NCBI RefSeq assembly: GCF_000205025.1
Contig: NZ_GL883676.1
Span: forward strand, 1 to 64,000
Direction: 5' to 3'
Origin: Parasutterella excrementihominis YIT 11859
GTDB taxonomy: Bacteria > Pseudomonadota > Gammaproteobacteria > Burkholderiales > Burkholderiaceae_F
DNA: 64,000 nucleotides
Part shown: in pieces, positions 16,831 to 42,889 of the stretch
Position numbering within the stretch: the first letter of the stretch is position 1
Layout: every line of letters begins with the position of its first letter
Notes under the pieces: model-generated
The model's database searches: none
What the model saw: only the letters and a program-made list of their open reading frames with translations
Told to the model about the DNA's origin: nothing
Translations under genes and position numbers: made by a program

Positions 16831-16866
16831 GAGCTCGGCTGAAGATACAGTAGCCGAGCTTTTTTG
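16831..16866 (+). terminator. Intrinsic terminator after hslO
   Basis: Stem AGCTCGGCT/AGCCGAGCT with an 11-base loop, followed by TTTTTT. Confidence 0.9.
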
Positions 16867-16896: not shown

Positions 16897-17304
16897 TTAC
16901 TTCGGATCTTTCATATTCCAAGCTTTGACGTCATGGCAGGTGGCGCAGTCGTTAACGCTCGGACGATGTTCACGGTGGCAGTCGGTGCAGTCTTCCGTCT
17001 TGCCGAAGTGATATCTGTCATGAGGATTGATTCGGGCGAGGTGCTCTTTGACTTCGCCGGTCTTCGGATTCTTCATGCGTGAAATGTAGTTGAGGCGGTC
17101 GGTTTTTTGGGCCAGCTGATCCTGGTTATGGCAGGTCTGACACTGTTTTGTTTCGACCGGTTCAAACTTTCCGGTGGTATGACACTGCGTGCAGTTCACA
17201 CCGCGCTGAGCATGCTTGCTGGACTGAGGCATTCCAGCGGCCTGAACGGACATAGCGAAAACGGACGAGCAGATTAAGAGTGCGGCTTTATAAGTAAATT
17301 TCAT
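16897..17304 (-). CDS. Periplasmic tetraheme cytochrome c (c3-like) subunit
   Basis: Small exported cytochrome with a Sec signal peptide (about residues 1-22, ending VQAAG) and four CxxCH heme sites: CTQCH, CQTCH, CTDCH and CATCH. Extra histidines supply possible second axial ligands. It resembles the heme domain of Shewanella-type flavocytochrome c3, here a separate gene. The flavoprotein gene lies nine bases upstream on the same strand, so the two very likely form an electron-transfer pair in which quinol-derived electrons pass through the hemes to the FAD subunit. A membrane quinol dehydrogenase (NapC/CymA type) is not in the window. Confidence 0.9.
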   Translation of the reverse strand: MKFTYKAALLICSSVFAMSVQAAGMPQSSKHAQRGVNCTQCHTTGKFEPVETKQCQTCHNQDQLAQKTDRLNYISRMKNPKTGEVKEHLARINPHDRYHFGKTEDCTDCHREHRPSVNDCATCHDVKAWNMKDPK

Positions 17305-17313
17305 GGCTTCCTC

Positions 17314-18843
17314 CTAGATACTTTTGCGTTGAGCGGCACTTTCACCGGCAATCATGCCGAAGACTGCGCATTCAGGCATCGAGCAGCCGGTCATACGTTC
17401 CTGGCCGTGCAGTCCGCCGCTGGCTTCTCCGACCACATACAAACCTTCGATCGGTTTACCGTCTTTCAGCGCAATTGCTCTGCCTTGTAAATCCGTGCGG
17501 ATTCCACCCGGTGTGTAGTTCAGTCTGGGGTTAATGACCATCGCAAAGAGCGGTCCCTTCAGGTCGAGCGCTTCAACCTTGCGGCCGGAACGTTCAAGCG
17601 GTTTATCAAACTGAGCGTCCTTGCCTTCCGTGATCATGGCGTTGTATTTAACAAGCTCGTCTTCAACGACCTTTGGATCAGCGCCGAAAGCCTTGCAAAG
17701 TTCGCTCAGATTGTCGTACTTGACCATTGTGCCGTCGATGCCGTTTAAGCCGTTAAGGCTGCGCTGGACACGGTTGAGGTTGTGGAATTTACCCAGAGAT
17801 TTTTCATCGTAGATGATGAACGGTTTCTTGTCTCCGTTCTGCAGTCTCTTCAGAAGAACCGCCTGTGCAAGCGCATTTCTTGTTAAGCCTTCATTGATGA
17901 AGCGGCGACCGGTGGCGGGATCGACCATCATGCCCCAAATCATATCTTCCGTCGGCAGCGGATAAGCAAAGCGAAAGAGAGACAAGTGCATCGGCTGGGC
18001 ACCTGCGTTAACTAAAATCTTCAGAGCTCCGGCGGTTGCGCCCGGGTTTGTGGTGGTTGCAACGCCTGCTAAGAACGGAACCTCTGAAGAGCGGAATGCT
18101 TTGTCTCTGGCGTAGCCGCCGGTAGCGAAAATCACGCCTTTCTTAGCTTCGATGCGTTTTTCCACACCGGTCTTGTTTTCGTTGTCGTCGGTTTCAGGGG
18201 TATCAAAGAAATATTTTTCTCTGACCTTGACGCCGACCGCGACGCCTTTATCGTTAAAGAGAACTTCATCGGCCTTCACATGGGTGCGGACAGTGACGTT
18301 CTTCAAACCTTTCATGTAAGTCCACAGAGCATTCAGCAGACCGGCTCCGTCACCTTCGGAAACGAGAACACGAGGCTGAGAGTGACCGCCTAATTTCAGC
18401 AGGCGGCCGTCCCACTTGACGCCGCGCTGTGTCATGAAAGCTTCGGCGCGGGCAGTGTTCTTTGCCATTTCAAGGGCCTTTTCATAATCGCCCATGTTGC
18501 CCGAGACTTTATACATATCGGAGGCGAGCTGCTCAGACGTGTCTTTGACGCCTTTAGCCTTTTGAGCGGGAGAACCGACACAGGCAAAGTTCAGACCGCT
18601 GATGCGGGATGTACCGCCGAGGCGGCTCATCTTTTCAATCATTAAAACATTAGCGCCTTTATCGGCGGCGGAAAGTGCGGCCATCGTTCCGGCAATACCG
18701 CTGCCTACGACGATCACGTCGAAGCTTTCATCGAATTTGGGTTTGGCAGCTTCGGCGGCAACGGCCGGAGTGGAACCGATAACTGCAGCCGCAAGCAGAG
18801 ATCCTTGGAGAAACGAGCGACGCTTCAAAGCGGATGTTGTCAT
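17314..18843 (-). CDS. Tat-exported flavocytochrome c-type FAD reductase subunit (fumarate reductase-like fold)
   Basis: FAD-dependent reductase of the fumarate/urocanate/methacrylate reductase superfamily. The Tat signal KRRSFLQG is at residues 7-14, so the protein is exported folded with FAD. The FAD-binding GxGxxG is in VIVVGSGIAGTMAAL at about residue 45. The C-terminal HGQERMTGCSMPECAVFG segment matches the region of the second substrate arginine, and the proton-donor arginine region is GRRFINEGLTRNA. By eye, the fumarate-contacting His and Thr-Glu of Fcc3 are not preserved, so the acceptor is probably not fumarate. It is paired with the tetraheme cytochrome and preceded by a two-component system on the same strand. 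Confidence 0.9.
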   Translation of the reverse strand: MTTSALKRRSFLQGSLLAAAVIGSTPAVAAEAAKPKFDESFDVIVVGSGIAGTMAALSAADKGANVLMIEKMSRLGGTSRISGLNFACVGSPAQKAKGVKDTSEQLASDMYKVSGNMGDYEKALEMAKNTARAEAFMTQRGVKWDGRLLKLGGHSQPRVLVSEGDGAGLLNALWTYMKGLKNVTVRTHVKADEVLFNDKGVAVGVKVREKYFFDTPETDDNENKTGVEKRIEAKKGVIFATGGYARDKAFRSSEVPFLAGVATTTNPGATAGALKILVNAGAQPMHLSLFRFAYPLPTEDMIWGMMVDPATGRRFINEGLTRNALAQAVLLKRLQNGDKKPFIIYDEKSLGKFHNLNRVQRSLNGLNGIDGTMVKYDNLSELCKAFGADPKVVEDELVKYNAMITEGKDAQFDKPLERSGRKVEALDLKGPLFAMVINPRLNYTPGGIRTDLQGRAIALKDGKPIEGLYVVGEASGGLHGQERMTGCSMPECAVFGMIAGESAAQRKSI

Positions 18844-18931
18844 ATTTTTCCTCTTGTTATGGTTTGAGGTGGTCTATGACTGTTATTTTCTAAAAATAAA
18901 CTTTCAGCGCCGCCAAAAAAAAATCGAAAAG

Positions 18932-18948
18932 ATTACAAAAACATTACA
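18932..18948 (-). promoter_or_regulatory. Candidate response-regulator direct repeat before the flavoprotein gene
   Basis: On the minus strand, TTGTAAT occurs twice with starts ten bases apart (TTGTAATGTTTTTGTAAT), about 90-105 bases before the flavoprotein ATG and overlapping the stop codon of the response regulator gene. OmpR/PhoB-family regulators bind such tandem half-sites on one face of the helix. The 12-mer ATTACAAAAACA recurs at 21860-21871 before the kinase gene. The assignment to this regulator is inferred. Confidence 0.45.
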
Positions 18949-19657
18949 AGTCCTCTTCCGAAAGGTCTTCGATGTAATAACCGATCCCTGAATAAGAGGA
19001 AATGGCCGAGCCCGGGAAACCTGCCGCCGTCAGTTTCTTTCTTATTCTGGAGAGGGACACACGCAAATAGTTGAGTTCTCCGATAAATTCAGGCCCCCAA
19101 ACTCGCCGAAGCAAATCTTCGTGTGTAAAGATGGTTCCCGGCCGTTTAACCAAGATAAACAGAAGACGGAACTCAGTATCGGCAAGCCTAATTTCCTGAT
19201 CCTTGTATCGGCATGTACGTTTATCGGGATCCATAACGAGAGGTCCGTTAACTGCCTGTACGGTCGCTGCCGGCCCGGTCTTCACGCCGCCGGAGCGTCT
19301 CAGGATAGCTCGGATGCGAGCCGTCATTTCTTCGATGGAAAATGGTTTGACGACATAGTCGTCGGCCCCGAGTTCCAAGGCTTGGGTTTTCTTAGCAATT
19401 TCTTCTCGAGCCGAAAGCATGATCACGGGAATTGACGATTTCTTTCTCAATTCTGCTAGGAACGCCATACCGTCGATCTCAGGCATCATGTAATCGAGAA
19501 TAATCAGATCGCAATGACCGTTCTTTAAGTATTCCGAAGCGCTCATTGCCGAGTCTGCCACGGCTACATCAAATCCTTCTGCCTCTAGAGAGCGGGAAAG
19601 CAGTCTGCGGATTTTGCTTTCATCATCAACAATCAAAATCGTCGTTCTTTCCGTCAT
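18944..19657 (-). CDS. OmpR/PhoB-family response regulator
   Basis: Two-component DNA-binding regulator. The receiver domain (about residues 5-115) has the acidic pair DD at 11-12, the phosphoacceptor Asp55 in LIILDYMMP, and Lys in VVKPFS. A winged-helix output domain covers about residues 135-232 (RTCRYKDQEIRLADTEFRLL, LLRRVWGPEF, NYLRVSLSRIRKKL). Its ATG overlaps the kinase stop codon by four bases, so the pair is translationally coupled. The gene is followed on the same strand by the flavoprotein/cytochrome genes, its most likely targets. Confidence 0.93.
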   Translation of the reverse strand: MTERTTILIVDDESKIRRLLSRSLEAEGFDVAVADSAMSASEYLKNGHCDLIILDYMMPEIDGMAFLAELRKKSSIPVIMLSAREEIAKKTQALELGADDYVVKPFSIEEMTARIRAILRRSGGVKTGPAATVQAVNGPLVMDPDKRTCRYKDQEIRLADTEFRLLFILVKRPGTIFTHEDLLRRVWGPEFIGELNYLRVSLSRIRKKLTAAGFPGSAISSYSGIGYYIEDLSEEDL

Positions 19658-21741
19658 TCTTCTTCCTCATTTGCTGTCTCTGTCGGAAGCGCCGGCAGCT
19701 CAAGCGTAAAGACCGTTCCTTCGCCTAAAGTACTTGCGACCGTGACCTTTCCTTTATGCAGAAGCACCAATTCCTTAGTAATGTATAAGCCCAAACCCGT
19801 TCCGCCGATTTTTCTAGCGGAATCCATTCTGACTTGATAAAACCGATCGAAGATCTTATCCAGCGCCGACTCGGGCACTCCTATACCGTCGTCTTCCACC
19901 ATGAGTTCCAGGAAATCTCCTAACTTCCGGGTTTGAATTTTCACTCGGCAGGCACTGCCCTCTTTCCGGTATTTATAGGCATTCGAGAGAAGATTCTGAA
20001 TGATCTGCATAAATGCCTGTTTGTCCACGTTGGCAGCCGCAGCATCCGGCGAAATTTCCAAGGAACATTCAAAATCTTTAAAGCCGGAAAAATGTTTGAG
20101 CGCTTTTCGTATCATGGGCTTAATCAAACAGAATTCCGGGTGAATTTCATAAGAGCCTGTCTGAAGTTTGGCAACATCCAGCCAACGAGAGATCATGTCT
20201 TTCATTTCGTCGGCGCTTTCCAGAAGCTCGGCGGCCGTCTCTTTACTCTCTGGGTCCTGAACCGTTTTGACCAGGCATTCTGCCGCCATGCGCACCCCGG
20301 CGAGCGGCGTTTTAAGTTCATGGGCAGCGATTCCGATCAGTTCATCCTTTAATCGGTCAATTTGAACTTCTGAAGTCGCATCGCGAGCGATTACACAGAA
20401 CACATCTTTGGTCCCGCTCTCAAACATACGCAGTTCCAAATCATAAACACCGGAATGAATGAAAAGATGCTTATCAGGACTCTGATGCATTTCTTTTACC
20501 AGGGCTAAAAAGCGTTTCCGTGCTTCGTTCTCTGACAAGTTAAGCAGACGAACAGCCGAAGGATTACGAAAACGCATTTCCAGCTTTTGGTTAAACAAGA
20601 CAATCCCTTCATTCATATCTGAGAAGAGAGAAGTCAAAAGCGCTTCATGCCGCTGAATCGTTTCAACCTGAGCCTTCACCTTAGCCTCAAGCGAGGAATT
20701 CAACTCCTTAAGACGTGTCTGAGCTGTCAGTAGTCTTTCCTGCATCCGTCCGTACGTGCGCTGCAGCTGAACAAGCTCTCTCGGCGACTTAATTTTTTCG
20801 CTTTTATCCGGAAGGATTCTTGCGGCCGTCATTTGACGCGTCAGTTTTTCAACAGCCCGAACTACTGAAATCGAAGCTAAAAAGCCGATCACAATCGCAG
20901 CTAGGAAAGTCGCGAGCCAAACAAATACATTGCGTATGAAAAGCTGGACCAAAACCGTCTTTCGATCAACGGTTCGTGAGAATACACCCACAGACCAATC
21001 CGTAACCGCTAAGGGACGCACATAACCGTAATATTCGGCATTCGAGAAAGTGAAGCTGCGGTGCGTTCTTTCTTCAATCGAGAGATTGTGAAGCGGAACC
21101 GACTTGCCGGAAGAAAAGATAACCTCTCCGTTTCTGCCGAAAATGCCGATTTGATAAGCATCCGTGGCCAAGCCTTTTAAAACCTGAGCGGCAATCTGCT
21201 CAAGATCAAGGGCGGCAACGGCCAAACCCACGAAACGTCCGTTGGAATAAACAGGCTTGGTAATATTCACAATCTTACGGTCGGAAGCTCCGACCGCTTG
21301 AACGAGTCCAGAAACCGATATGCCGTCCTTAACATAAGGATTCTTCCAGTGAGAGCGATCTTTATGTGAAACGCCGATATTAGATTCACCGCGCTTGTTT
21401 TTTCGAGGAGAAAAAGCCACGCTCACAGCGGAGGGATCGTCGAAATGCATATTCAGGATATCCGGCGAAGCCTTGCAAAGCTCTTCTAATATCAAACTCA
21501 GTTTCTCAGCGGGCTCTCCTTCTTCGGATTTCAAGATTTCCGCAGCAGCGGTTACCAAGGAAACGGCATTGTCGACCTTGGCTTCCAGACGCTCAGACAC
21601 TAATAAAGAGATCTCCGCTCTCGTGCGATCGTCCTCAGTGAATTCTCTTTCAACCGCAACGTATTGAAGCCATCCCATGACCAAACAGGGAATGGTTACG
21701 GCCGCAGCCGAGATAAAAAATAATAGAGTCCGGAAACGCAT
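19654..21741 (-). CDS. Membrane sensor histidine kinase with periplasmic Cache-like domain
   Basis: Sensor for the adjacent regulator. One membrane helix at about residues 5-27, a large extracytoplasmic region to about 270 resembling a double Cache/PDC sensor (VSHKDRSHWKNPYVKDGISVSG, ITKPVYSNGRFVGLAVAALDL), and a second helix at about 275-298. A coiled-coil linker and a short PAS-like segment follow. The HisKA box is HELKTP with His at about 474. The ATPase domain has the N box LLSNAYKYR, VEDDGIGVP and GGTGLGLYI. Cache domains usually bind small organic ligands, so direct sensing of an electron acceptor or carboxylate is plausible, though no ligand can be named. Confidence 0.92.
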   Translation of the reverse strand: MRFRTLLFFISAAAVTIPCLVMGWLQYVAVEREFTEDDRTRAEISLLVSERLEAKVDNAVSLVTAAAEILKSEEGEPAEKLSLILEELCKASPDILNMHFDDPSAVSVAFSPRKNKRGESNIGVSHKDRSHWKNPYVKDGISVSGLVQAVGASDRKIVNITKPVYSNGRFVGLAVAALDLEQIAAQVLKGLATDAYQIGIFGRNGEVIFSSGKSVPLHNLSIEERTHRSFTFSNAEYYGYVRPLAVTDWSVGVFSRTVDRKTVLVQLFIRNVFVWLATFLAAIVIGFLASISVVRAVEKLTRQMTAARILPDKSEKIKSPRELVQLQRTYGRMQERLLTAQTRLKELNSSLEAKVKAQVETIQRHEALLTSLFSDMNEGIVLFNQKLEMRFRNPSAVRLLNLSENEARKRFLALVKEMHQSPDKHLFIHSGVYDLELRMFESGTKDVFCVIARDATSEVQIDRLKDELIGIAAHELKTPLAGVRMAAECLVKTVQDPESKETAAELLESADEMKDMISRWLDVAKLQTGSYEIHPEFCLIKPMIRKALKHFSGFKDFECSLEISPDAAAANVDKQAFMQIIQNLLSNAYKYRKEGSACRVKIQTRKLGDFLELMVEDDGIGVPESALDKIFDRFYQVRMDSARKIGGTGLGLYITKELVLLHKGKVTVASTLGEGTVFTLELPALPTETANEEEE

Positions 21742-21859
21742 GGAAACTTGGAAGAAATCGCTTTTTTAGATTATCTCCCGAGACCCTCAAGGACTCCCTG
21801 AGGATTTTTACCTAAGAAAGTTTTAGGTTTTGATAATCCCGGACGAGCATAATTTCTTC

Positions 21860-21871
21860 ATTACAAAAACA
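21860..21871. promoter_or_regulatory. 12-bp copy of the candidate regulator site, in the kinase/exporter spacer
   Basis: ATTACAAAAACA here is identical to the start of the direct repeat at 18932. It lies between the divergent kinase and TauE-family genes. The second half-site is degenerate. This could give autoregulation or control of the exporter. Confidence 0.35.
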
Positions 21872-21888: not shown

Positions 21889-22650
21889 ATGGACATCACG
21901 CTTACCGTCATACTCGTCTGCTTTGTTGTTTTCTTTATTGCAGGCTTTGTCGATGCTATTGCGGGCGGAGGCGGTCTCATCACGATGCCGGTCCTTTTGC
22001 TGTTGGGCATACCCGCTCACTACACGCTCGGAACCGGAAAGCTCGCTTCCAGCCTCGGTTCAATTACGGCATTGATTACCTTCTGGAAAAGAGGCGCCGT
22101 CATCAAAGAAGTCGTCCTATTGGGCGTTATTTCTTCTTACTTCGGCGCAGTAATTGCCTCTGCGACGACACTTCTCATTTCCAATGAGAAGATGACGATC
22201 ATCATGATTTTTCTTCTGCCAGTTGCGATTCTCCTTTCGCTTTTCTGCGGAACGCTCAAACTGACGGAAGAAGACCTTCCAAAGAAAGGGTTATGGTGGA
22301 GAGTCTCGGCAATCGGTTTGTCCGTCGGTTTCTATGAAGGCTTTTTCGGTCCCGGCGCCGGAAGTTTCTTTTTGATCGGCATTCACCTCTTGCTCAAGGC
22401 CGGTTTGGTTAAAGCTTCCGGTACGGCAAAAGCATTCAATATCGCCGCCAACTTAGGCGCGGTCACAACGTTTGCTTCCGCAGGAACGCTTTATTACTCG
22501 CTGGCTCTCCCTTGCGCGGTTGCCAGCATCTTGGGCAACCGCTTAGGCGCAATCTATGCCGTCAAAATCGGTCCGACGCTCGTACGCAGCATGCTCTACT
22601 TCGTGTTAGTCATGCTGCTGATTTCTCTGATAACGCGATTCGTTATTTAA
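21889..22650 (+). CDS. TauE/SafE (TSUP) family anion exporter
   Basis: Polytopic inner-membrane protein of the sulfite/organic anion exporter family. The glycine-rich signature FVDAIAGGGGLITMPVLLLLG near residues 20-40 and GTGKLASSLGS are typical, and the second repeat contains FYEGFFGPGAGSFFLIG. About eight hydrophobic segments lie in 253 residues. It is divergent from the histidine kinase and shares its upstream region. It ends convergently with alr, overlapping by eight bases. It might export a product of the neighbouring reductase, but this is inferred only from position. Confidence 0.88.
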   Translation: MDITLTVILVCFVVFFIAGFVDAIAGGGGLITMPVLLLLGIPAHYTLGTGKLASSLGSITALITFWKRGAVIKEVVLLGVISSYFGAVIASATTLLISNEKMTIIMIFLLPVAILLSLFCGTLKLTEEDLPKKGLWWRVSAIGLSVGFYEGFFGPGAGSFFLIGIHLLLKAGLVKASGTAKAFNIAANLGAVTTFASAGTLYYSLALPCAVASILGNRLGAIYAVKIGPTLVRSMLYFVLVMLLISLITRFVI

Positions 22651-40723: not shown

Positions 40724-42889
40724 TTACTTGTGAGCAACAGCAGACTTAGCCGCAATTCTGCCAAACGTTAAAACATCAGCCGTGGCATTACCGCCTAAAC
40801 GGTTAGAGCCATGGATACCGCCTGTCACTTCACCGGCTGCATAGAGGCCGGGGATCGGCTTGCCGTTCTTATCCAAGACCTGAGCATTGGTCGAAATCTG
40901 CAAACCACCCATAGTGTGATGGATCGAAGGTGCACGCGGAGTAGCATAGAACGGAGGTTTAACGATAGGACGATCAAAGAGTTTGCGTCCGAACTTCGGA
41001 TCGTTCTTAGCTTCAACCATCTTATTGAATTCAGCCACCGTTGCTTCGAGCTTATCAGCAGGCATACCGAGCTGTTTAGCCAAATCAGCTAAAGAATCAG
41101 CCTTGTAGATACGGCCGATGCTGACCAAAGTTTCAACATCTTCGTTAAAGCTGTTGAGCGGTTTAACGATCGAGGAATCGTTGATATCGTAAACAACTCC
41201 GCCGGGCTGCTTCTTGATCGCGGCAACGAATTCGTCGCGGCGCGCATCTTCTTTGACGAAGCGTTCACCGTTCTTGTTGACGTCAATCACATCGTCCAAA
41301 CCTGACATCTTGCGGGCGCGGCCCTGCAGAGCGCCGGTACCCGGAGTAGCCAGCGGATAAACCTGAACGTAGTTCATGCCGGTTGTATCTGCGCCGTGTC
41401 TTGTGGCAATAACAATACCGTCACCGGTTGCACCCGGCTGGTTCGTAGAAACCATTTCCGGAGTGAGGTGCGGAGCAGACTTCCGACGCATTTCTTTGTT
41501 CTGGGAATAGCCGCCGGTAGCCAGAATGACACCGTCCTTGGATGTGAATTCGTACTTATTGCCAACCTTGTCGGTTGCAGTCACGCCGATCACGCGGCCC
41601 TTGTCATTGAGGATAAGGTCCTGAACGCGCATACCCAGCTTGAAGTTAACGCCCTGTTTGACGGCAGACTGATACAGAGGATCAATCAGGCCGAGACCTG
41701 CAGGAGCATCGAGCTGGTGTGTACGCTGCCAGAGAGCGCCAGCGCCCTGGCTGACGCGGTCCATCACAGGAGAACCTTTAGACTGCATCCAGTGCAGCGT
41801 ATCGAGTACATTGTTGGAATACTGCCTGATCAGAGGAATCTGACCGACTTTGTCGCCGCCGTTATAAGTTTGGAGAGCATGCCATTCAGGGCAGTCAAAG
41901 AGAGTCTTAGAACCGCTCTTCAAGTAGGCTTCATACTTGGCTTTGACGTCGGCCATTAGCTTGGCGTGTTCTTCGCTGACAGGTTTTTCGCTGATTGCTT
42001 TAACCACAGCTTCCTTCAGTGTTTCGGTCATCGGAAGCGCTTTCTGTCTATCAGGGTCAGCTGCATTAAATGCAGATGCGCAGCGAAGTGTGTTTCCGCC
42101 GATCACGGGCATCTTTTCCAAAACCAAAACGTTCTTAACGCCTAAATCTTTAGCTGTGACAGCAGCGGAAAGACCGGCGCCGCCAGCACCTACGATGATG
42201 AGATCTGCACTGTCCTTGGTTATCCCGGCAACTTTCTTGATCTTTTCAGAAACGGGTTTTTGGAATGCTGCGATGTCGCCGCCGGCTTTTTCAATTGCCT
42301 GAGCAATGGCTGTCTTCAGGGCGGTACTTGTGACCGTCGCACCGGCGATGTTGTCAACATTGAGCGTCTGATACTGCAGAACGTCTTTACCGATTTCACG
42401 GATTGCCGTGTCGCCTAAATATTTCGTTTCTCTCTGGCCCGGTGTCTTAATGTCGATAATCTTGTTGTCTTTAATCGTAACTTCAACGGTCAGCCAGCCG
42501 TTATTGCCGTATGCTTTGCCTTCAAAATTGCCATTCTTGAGAGCCAGAGGAGCGGCTTTCTTGCCCTGGGCCTGGTTCAGGCATTCCTGAACAGCTTTCT
42601 TGATGGCGGCAGAAGAAACAGAAGCACCGGCGACGCCTTGGACATCTGCAGACTGTGCTTTAACGATTTCAGCCGGAAGAGAGGCAACTGCCTTGGAGCC
42701 GATACCTTCCGTTTCCTTTTGATCAACGATCTTGACGGAAAGAATCTTGTCCGCTGAAGTCGTTACTTCGACTTTGACCGGTCCGTTCTGGCCAGCAATG
42801 GCGCCCGTGTAGGTGCCCGGTGTATAGGCATATGCACCGGTAGAAACGGCAGCAAGCAGAACTGAGGTGGCAAGTACTGATAATTTCAT
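40724..42889 (-). CDS. Exported FAD reductase with two FMN-binding domains (urocanate/fumarate reductase family)
   Basis: Periplasmic reductase with a Sec signal peptide (about residues 1-22). Two consecutive FMN_bind domains end in GASVSS (about residue 90) and GATVTS (about residue 190), the sites where ApbE attaches FMN. The flavin reductase domain starts with DLIIVGAGGAGLSAA at about residue 230, and HGSNRLGGNATADVLTFGR lies near the C-terminus. In the active site, Tyr of YVQVYPLA sits where fumarate reductases have His, and the Thr-Glu pair is missing, which resembles urocanate reductase rather than fumarate reductase. DARRDEF carries the proton-donor Arg region. No heme sites, and no cytochrome gene nearby. 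AAGGAGAAATATTC precedes the ATG. Confidence 0.88.
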   Translation of the reverse strand: MKLSVLATSVLLAAVSTGAYAYTPGTYTGAIAGQNGPVKVEVTTSADKILSVKIVDQKETEGIGSKAVASLPAEIVKAQSADVQGVAGASVSSAAIKKAVQECLNQAQGKKAAPLALKNGNFEGKAYGNNGWLTVEVTIKDNKIIDIKTPGQRETKYLGDTAIREIGKDVLQYQTLNVDNIAGATVTSTALKTAIAQAIEKAGGDIAAFQKPVSEKIKKVAGITKDSADLIIVGAGGAGLSAAVTAKDLGVKNVLVLEKMPVIGGNTLRCASAFNAADPDRQKALPMTETLKEAVVKAISEKPVSEEHAKLMADVKAKYEAYLKSGSKTLFDCPEWHALQTYNGGDKVGQIPLIRQYSNNVLDTLHWMQSKGSPVMDRVSQGAGALWQRTHQLDAPAGLGLIDPLYQSAVKQGVNFKLGMRVQDLILNDKGRVIGVTATDKVGNKYEFTSKDGVILATGGYSQNKEMRRKSAPHLTPEMVSTNQPGATGDGIVIATRHGADTTGMNYVQVYPLATPGTGALQGRARKMSGLDDVIDVNKNGERFVKEDARRDEFVAAIKKQPGGVVYDINDSSIVKPLNSFNEDVETLVSIGRIYKADSLADLAKQLGMPADKLEATVAEFNKMVEAKNDPKFGRKLFDRPIVKPPFYATPRAPSIHHTMGGLQISTNAQVLDKNGKPIPGLYAAGEVTGGIHGSNRLGGNATADVLTFGRIAAKSAVAHK

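Follow-up and report, generated by a model that had tools for sequence, protein, structure and literature searches.

A tandem DNA box kept between a two-component regulator gene and a split flavocytochrome in Parasutterella and its relatives: a likely reductase switch

Parasutterella excrementihominis YIT 11859 harbours a locus that is, in our judgement, likely to be a two-component switch dedicated to a single respiratory-type reductase, comprising a histidine kinase, a response regulator, a tandem DNA box and the activation of a flavoprotein-cytochrome pair. The kinase-regulator pair very probably switches the reductase on, because related species have retained the DNA tag in front of the enzyme genes. 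Binding of the regulator to the box is predicted with good support from sequence comparison. Activation of the flavoprotein and tetraheme cytochrome genes by the regulator is probable but has less support than binding, since no recognisable −10 element stands at the distance known from Pho promoters (no consensus hexamer there in seven clade A rows). Conservation by itself does not name the binding protein. The window referred to throughout is the whole stretch of DNA analysed, i.e. the first 64,000 nucleotides of contig NZ_GL883676.1.

The order kinase, regulator, flavoprotein and tetraheme cytochrome on one strand, already proposed in an earlier note on this DNA, is confirmed by the coordinates and the four CXXCH motifs of the cytochrome (Table 1). 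The kinase and regulator genes share an ATGA overlap. An inverted repeat followed by a run of T residues, which by eye resembles an intrinsic terminator, is located between the hsp33 and cytochrome genes (16832-16865).

Table 1 Features of the locus in the window and of the sister system elsewhere in the genome
Feature	Coordinates	Strand	Basis and remarks
Tetraheme c-type cytochrome, 135 aa, Sec-like signal (by eye)	16897..17304	minus	Cytochrom_c3_2 47.4 bits; four CXXCH
Periplasmic flavoprotein, flavocytochrome c subfamily, 509 aa	17314..18843	minus	TIGR01813 296.7 bits (cut-off 285.45); FAD_binding_2 174.4 bits
Regulator-flavoprotein gap, 100 bp, predicted promoter region	18844..18943	minus	Gap coordinates and sequence
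Tandem box, two 11-bp units TTGTAATGTTT TTGTAATCTTT, predicted regulator site	18928..18949	minus	Single exact genome copy; junction conservation
OmpR/PhoB-family response regulator, 237 aa, winged-helix DNA-binding domain	18944..19657	minus	Response_reg 114.2 bits (cut-off 30.2); Trans_reg_C 64.6 bits (cut-off 26.2)
Sensor histidine kinase, 695 aa	19654..21741	minus	Pfam: HATPase_c 100.3 bits, HisKA 50.9, dCache_1 42.0 (below cut-off 45)
Kinase layout: periplasmic dCache-like sensor between two predicted long helices, then HisKA and HATPase_c			Membrane spans by eye
Second 12-mer copy, single half-site, in the kinase-TauE spacer	21860..21871	plus	Matrix rank 126; not kept in P. muris
TauE/SafE-family permease	21889..22650	plus	Divergent from kinase; PF01925 138.4 bits
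C81 sister system	L039 3164-10494 (G000 C81)		484-bp gap with tandem box, then three genes

The box consists of two exact TTGTAAT half-sites on the minus strand (18943-18949 and 18932-18938), the first of which overlaps the end of the regulator gene and supplies its stop codon (TTG TAA). A TTGTAAT tandem directly upstream of the flavoprotein gene had been noted before with a spacing of ten bases; the tandem itself stands, but the period is 11 bp. Within the 2.83-Mb genome TTGTAAT-N4-TTGTAAT is found as one exact copy, and the sole copy with one mismatch sits within an open frame. Not one of 4000 dinucleotide shuffles of the window's gap gave a match as good as its best. A GCGG-like element about 18 bp past the second half-site (in 18844-18930 of the window), which may mark the transcription start, recurs in three relatives (G002, G014, G026) and less exactly in two more (G035, G089).

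A flavoprotein profile at E <= 1e-180 finds 10 of 67 family genomes, the window's own (G000) included. The relatives are Parasutterella muris (G002), Turicimonas muris YL45 (G026), a further Turicimonas (G014), Sutterella massiliensis An829 (G083), the Sutterella assemblies G035, G089, G088 and G085, and G025, which shares the genus of G035. The order kinase-regulator-flavoprotein-cytochrome is kept in all eight relatives with enough contig, spread over Parasutterella, Turicimonas and Sutterella, and each of the eight cytochrome orthologues has four CXXCH motifs; the contig of G085 starts 146 bases before the flavoprotein gene and was left out of this count. The junction between regulator and flavoprotein genes holds TTGTAGCGTTT TTTTAATCTTT in G002, TTGTAGCACTT TTGTAATTTTT in G014, TTATAGCACTT TTGTAATCTTT in G026 and CTGTAACGCTT TCGTAATCTTT in both G035 and G089. 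In G025 the junction (L076 6709-6741) holds three successive 11-bp units that resemble half-sites, TTGAAACGCGG TTGCAATCTTT TTGCAACAAAC; in the second and third the core has changed from GTAA to GCAA. TTGCAA thereby appears in two successive 11-bp units, and both copies have therefore changed together.

For each gap, the best match to the window's tandem was compared with 4000 dinucleotide shuffles. The resulting p values were 0.0002 for the window, 0.012 for G002, 0.002 for G014, G089 and G025, 0.02 for G026, 0.0035 for G035, 0.03 for G083, where the spacing is irregular, and 0.28 for G088. In addition, a leave-genus-out matrix, trained only on other genera, gave the named junction site the top rank in 7/7 loci, window included, out of about 20,000 to 128,000 positions (units one and two being the named site in G025); the site register was picked by eye before matrix building, and G035/G089 as well as G014/G026 are close pairs and not independent. 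The top matrix position of G088 also falls at the junction, with one clear half-site at the stop codon in mostly coding DNA, and the second-best position of G083 lies in the gap as an irregular match. No box match was found in the 146 bp upstream of the flavoprotein gene of G085 (best matrix rank 15). The link from regulator to flavoprotein suggested in the earlier note thus draws support from the persistence of the box at the same junction in three genera; a sister regulator clade that has a related box of its own adds to this (see below).

Such a stretch might also be conserved without any specific regulator, as a T-rich core promoter or as the end of the regulator gene. It is AT-rich, TTGTAA resembles a −35 element, and the stop codon is overlapped in G000, G002, G088 and, counting its weak first unit, G025. 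Nevertheless, the box lies entirely past the stop codon in G014, G026, G035 and G089, as does the TTGCAA pair of G025, and coding constraint therefore does not explain the conservation. A core promoter also accounts poorly for an 11-bp repeat kept in noncoding DNA, for the joint change of both G025 copies and for the rarity of matches among shuffles in eight of the nine gaps (p 0.0002 to 0.03, with G088 at 0.28). We regard this explanation as very unlikely and keep to a box read by a regulator.

Both domain scores place the regulator well within the OmpR/PhoB family (Table 1), and the conserved 11-bp repeat would correspond to the direct-repeat half-sites that members of this family use near their target promoters. 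The nearest solved full-length proteins are 6lgq and KdpE. The regulator itself is neither a PhoB nor a KdpE equivalog by score (177.4 vs a cut-off of 296.2 bits and 161.8 vs 325 bits, respectively), while a PhoB-like regulator of the same genome, known as a partial sequence, reaches 279.7 bits against the PhoB cut-off of 296.2. The tandem might instead be a Pho box bound by this PhoB, which would put the reductase into the phosphate regulon. The 11-bp design is common to both kinds of box, a PhoB-like regulator is at hand, and the pstS gap of the window genome reads ATGTAAT-N4-TTGTCAT, so one of its half-sites has the TGTAAT form and some cross-binding by PhoB is conceivable. To compare the two boxes, pstS upstream regions were taken from seven of nine genomes, two having no PstS at the cut-off. 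In a crude test TTGTCAT-N4-TTGTCAT outscores TTGTAAT-N4-TTGTAAT in all seven regions, by 1-2 of 14 positions (in L080 the best match falls at the start of the gene itself), whereas TGTCA is absent from all seven named flavoprotein boxes. With TGTCAT favoured by the Pho boxes of these genomes, the box before the flavoprotein gene shares their design but is a separate one. Furthermore, it adjoins a dedicated regulator in the orthologous loci, and we give a place in the phosphate regulon very little credence.

The residues of the recognition helix fit a separate specificity of the dedicated regulator. In PhoB, T194, V197, R201 and R219 contact bases (PMC3264566). Mapped by eye from the E. coli PhoB sequence, these positions are Thr, Val, Arg and Arg in the PhoB-like regulator of the genome; in the window regulator they are Tyr, Val, Arg and Ser, with Arg at the position of D196. 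The regulator thus shares domain make-up and 11-bp direct repeats with PhoB but differs at the T194, D196 and R219 positions (Tyr, Arg and Ser) and in its box, TGTAAT vs mostly TGTCAT. KdpE, too, carries Tyr and Arg at two positions of the recognition helix, and the kdpFABC site that it reads consists of two 6-bp AT-rich repeats separated by 5 bp, an 11-bp period (PMC3264566). In comparison with KdpE as described there, the Tyr and Arg positions and the 11-bp site period are alike, but the half-site sequence and the target genes are others and the Tyr is not kept in the orthologues of the Sutterella group. Five regulators of that group have Leu, Leu, Thr, Ala and His in its place and retain LRV and R.R in the recognition helix.

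The next nearest regulator of the genome, C81, is 53% identical and has relatives in G001, G002, G014 and G026. In all five loci the sister regulator gene is followed by one shared transporter gene, and the sister box lies between the two, about 20 to 350 bases past the regulator gene. A clear tandem exists in four of the five loci, namely TTGTAATTTTTTTGTAAT (G002), TTGTAATTTTTCTGCAAT (window genome), TAGCAATTTTTTTGCAAT (G026) and CCGTAATTTTTTTGCAAT (G014); in the G001 locus one good half-site is kept and no clear tandem was seen. The C81 target genes encode a CitMHS-like transporter (a weak match, below the Pfam cut-off), an unknown 408-aa protein and an asparaginase. The recognition helix of the sister regulators reads QYLRV(T/A)F(A/T)RIR, with QYLRVTFARIRRK in C81 and NYLRVSLSRIRKK in the window regulator. 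The matrix of the flavoprotein boxes ranks the sister box first in three of the five loci, second in one and 31st in G001. Conversely, the sister-box matrix ranks the flavoprotein site 1 in the window, G014 and G089, 2 in G002 and G035, 3 in G025 and 12 in G026; the position that outranks it in G002, and one of the two that do so in G025, are at the same junction.

Given the likeness of the recognition helices and of the boxes within one genome, the sister regulator of the C81 clade might be the main reader of the flavoprotein box, or both regulators might read it and the two systems cross-talk. We consider this possible but rather unlikely. G035 keeps the box and yet has no second regulator at E <= 1e-50, and G001 has the sister system, with its one good half-site, but no flavoprotein orthologue at E <= 1e-180. 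A still less probable variant, which we mention as a long shot, is that in Parasutterella and Turicimonas the two sister systems with their nearly interchangeable 11-bp boxes form one circuit with deliberate cross-talk, one box serving the split flavocytochrome and the other the transporter-asparaginase gene set. If this were true, the uptake and breakdown of amino acids or carboxylates would be coupled to electron disposal on a related acceptor. The regulator encoded next to the flavoprotein gene remains our preferred reader of the box.

The 12-mer ATTACAAAAACA of the box recurs exactly once more, in the spacer between the kinase and TauE genes, as the earlier note had stated; these two copies in the window are also all that the 2.83-Mb genome has. 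The exporter link which that note derived from it finds no support. The second copy is a single half-site (rank 126 of about 128,000 matrix positions), the aligned bases of P. muris break it, and TauE adjoins the kinase in one of eight orthologous loci, that of P. muris. Control of TauE by the regulator could appeal to the restriction of the 12-mer to these two places and to the shuffles of the kinase-TauE spacer, only 12/20,000 of which share a 12-mer with the box. On the other side, some 12-mer of the box recurs in 33/300 shuffled windows, and no TauE match is found beside the kinase in the other seven relatives. The TauE-side 12-mer is probably a chance occurrence and not a functional site, and control of TauE seems to us highly doubtful. 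With neither conservation nor a second half-site, TauE was rejected as a member of the regulon.

A genome-wide search for the tandem, from which further reductase or cytochrome genes had been expected, does not show a wider regulon. The strict 22-bp pattern has 11 sites in the genome vs 9 for a reversed control. A looser 14-position tandem with up to two mismatches has 26 sites vs 11 for the reversed control, 16 inside open frames and ten outside; the excess over the control is assigned to no regulon. Three of the ten outside frames are accounted for by the window site, the C81 sister box and the pstS Pho box, which leaves seven others. Judged by reading the translations, four loose sites lie 111-459 bp before frames resembling a hydrolase/peptidase, a partition protein, a permease and a molybdopterin-synthesis protein, and one lies 182 bp before a phosphatase-like frame; two have no downstream frame in the piece examined. 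Only two of the 16 in-frame sites, both weak with two mismatches, precede reductase genes, one 658 bp before a flavoprotein gene (L023 1501-1518, G000 C48) and one 350 bp before an apparent molybdopterin reductase gene (L020 1501-1518, G000 C40).

The enzyme presumed to be under this control belongs by its score to the flavocytochrome c subfamily (Table 1), and its best PDB matches are members of the Fcc3 fumarate reductase / UrdA urocanate reductase family. The flavoprotein bears a Tat-like signal, KRRSFLQ (by eye). Its own structural model, with a mean pLDDT of 61.3, is too poor for use. Arg402 and Arg544 of Fcc3, which we take to be catalytic, align with R322 and R483. His504 and His365 are presumably carboxylate-binding; the former aligns with N442, and the latter falls on A293, Y294 or L296 across three printed alignments, none of them His and the register being unsure. 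Across the five flavoproteins aligned, R322, R483 and N442 do not vary. With the arginines kept and N442 in place of His504, the flavoprotein is predicted to be a double-bond reductase with a non-fumarate acceptor; fumarate is an unlikely substrate.

In contrast to Fcc3 and UrdA, the cytochrome of the window is a separate protein. Flavoprotein and tetraheme cytochrome are encoded by adjacent genes, each with a signal peptide (by eye), as befits a split flavocytochrome. A similar layout is known from the Mrd/Mcc methacrylate redox system of Geobacter sulfurreducens AM-1, where a periplasmic flavoprotein and a separate tetraheme cytochrome form one operon (PMC4427408). The likeness to that system is one of gene layout. 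A histidine kinase goes unmentioned in the main text of its description, where 'two-component' denotes the redox pair. Two NapC/NirT-type proteins are encoded in the Parasutterella genome and could feed the cytochrome.

The sensor domain of the kinase scores slightly below the dCache_1 cut-off (Table 1), as do four orthologues with 34.6-44.3 bits. Its model (mean pLDDT 80.7) has the dCache fold, with KinD (E 9e-13), Mlp24 (1e-11) and DctB (3e-11) among the best PDB matches and TM values by target of 0.77, 0.75 and 0.63, respectively. These domains were solved with ligands: KinD with pyruvate, Mlp24 with amino acids and DctB with succinate or malonate. The modelled sensor thus resembles dCache domains whose ligands are small carboxylates and amino acids, which is compatible with sensing of the acceptor by the kinase.

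The proposed switch would work as follows. The periplasmic dCache-like domain of the kinase would meet a small metabolite, and the kinase would phosphorylate the OmpR/PhoB-family regulator, a step established for the family. The regulator, as conservation predicts, would then bind head-to-tail on the 11-bp tandem TTGTAAT-N4-TTGTAAT that begins at its own stop codon, so that the box would act like a Pho or KdpE box with a sequence of its own. The bound regulator would presumably activate, rather than repress, transcription of the flavoprotein and tetraheme cytochrome genes. Quinol may donate electrons to a NapC/NirT-type protein whose gene lies elsewhere; the cytochrome would receive them next and pass them on to the flavoprotein, which would reduce an acceptor that is probably not fumarate. 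No literature on this kinase, regulator or box was found among the matches listed, in a search with most subscription journals outside it.

FAD_binding_2 occurs at about 75 places in the 2.83-Mb genome, two of them within one long frame (84 rows were reduced by joining one split match and dropping eight short fragments). One further such flavoprotein is present in the window at 40784-42205 on the minus strand, in an open frame of 725 aa. Response regulators were counted at 38 places (39 rows, two of which fall in one gene), and 23 of the 38 are within 2.5 kb of a FAD_binding_2 place, although such DNA makes up 14.5% of the genome; pairing of regulators and reductases is thus common here. The matches of 32 of the 38 cover the receiver domain only. 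Six regulator matches cover a DNA-binding domain, and that of the window is the only one less than 2.5 kb from a flavoprotein gene.

Little et al. 2024 reportedly described gut bacteria, among them Sutterella wadsworthensis, that possess arsenals of respiratory-type reductases. A genome-unique box tied to one such reductase offers a direct handle on it, and a reporter built on the box could reveal the gut metabolite that is respired. As regulators beside flavoproteins are common in this genome, the reporter approach may extend to others.
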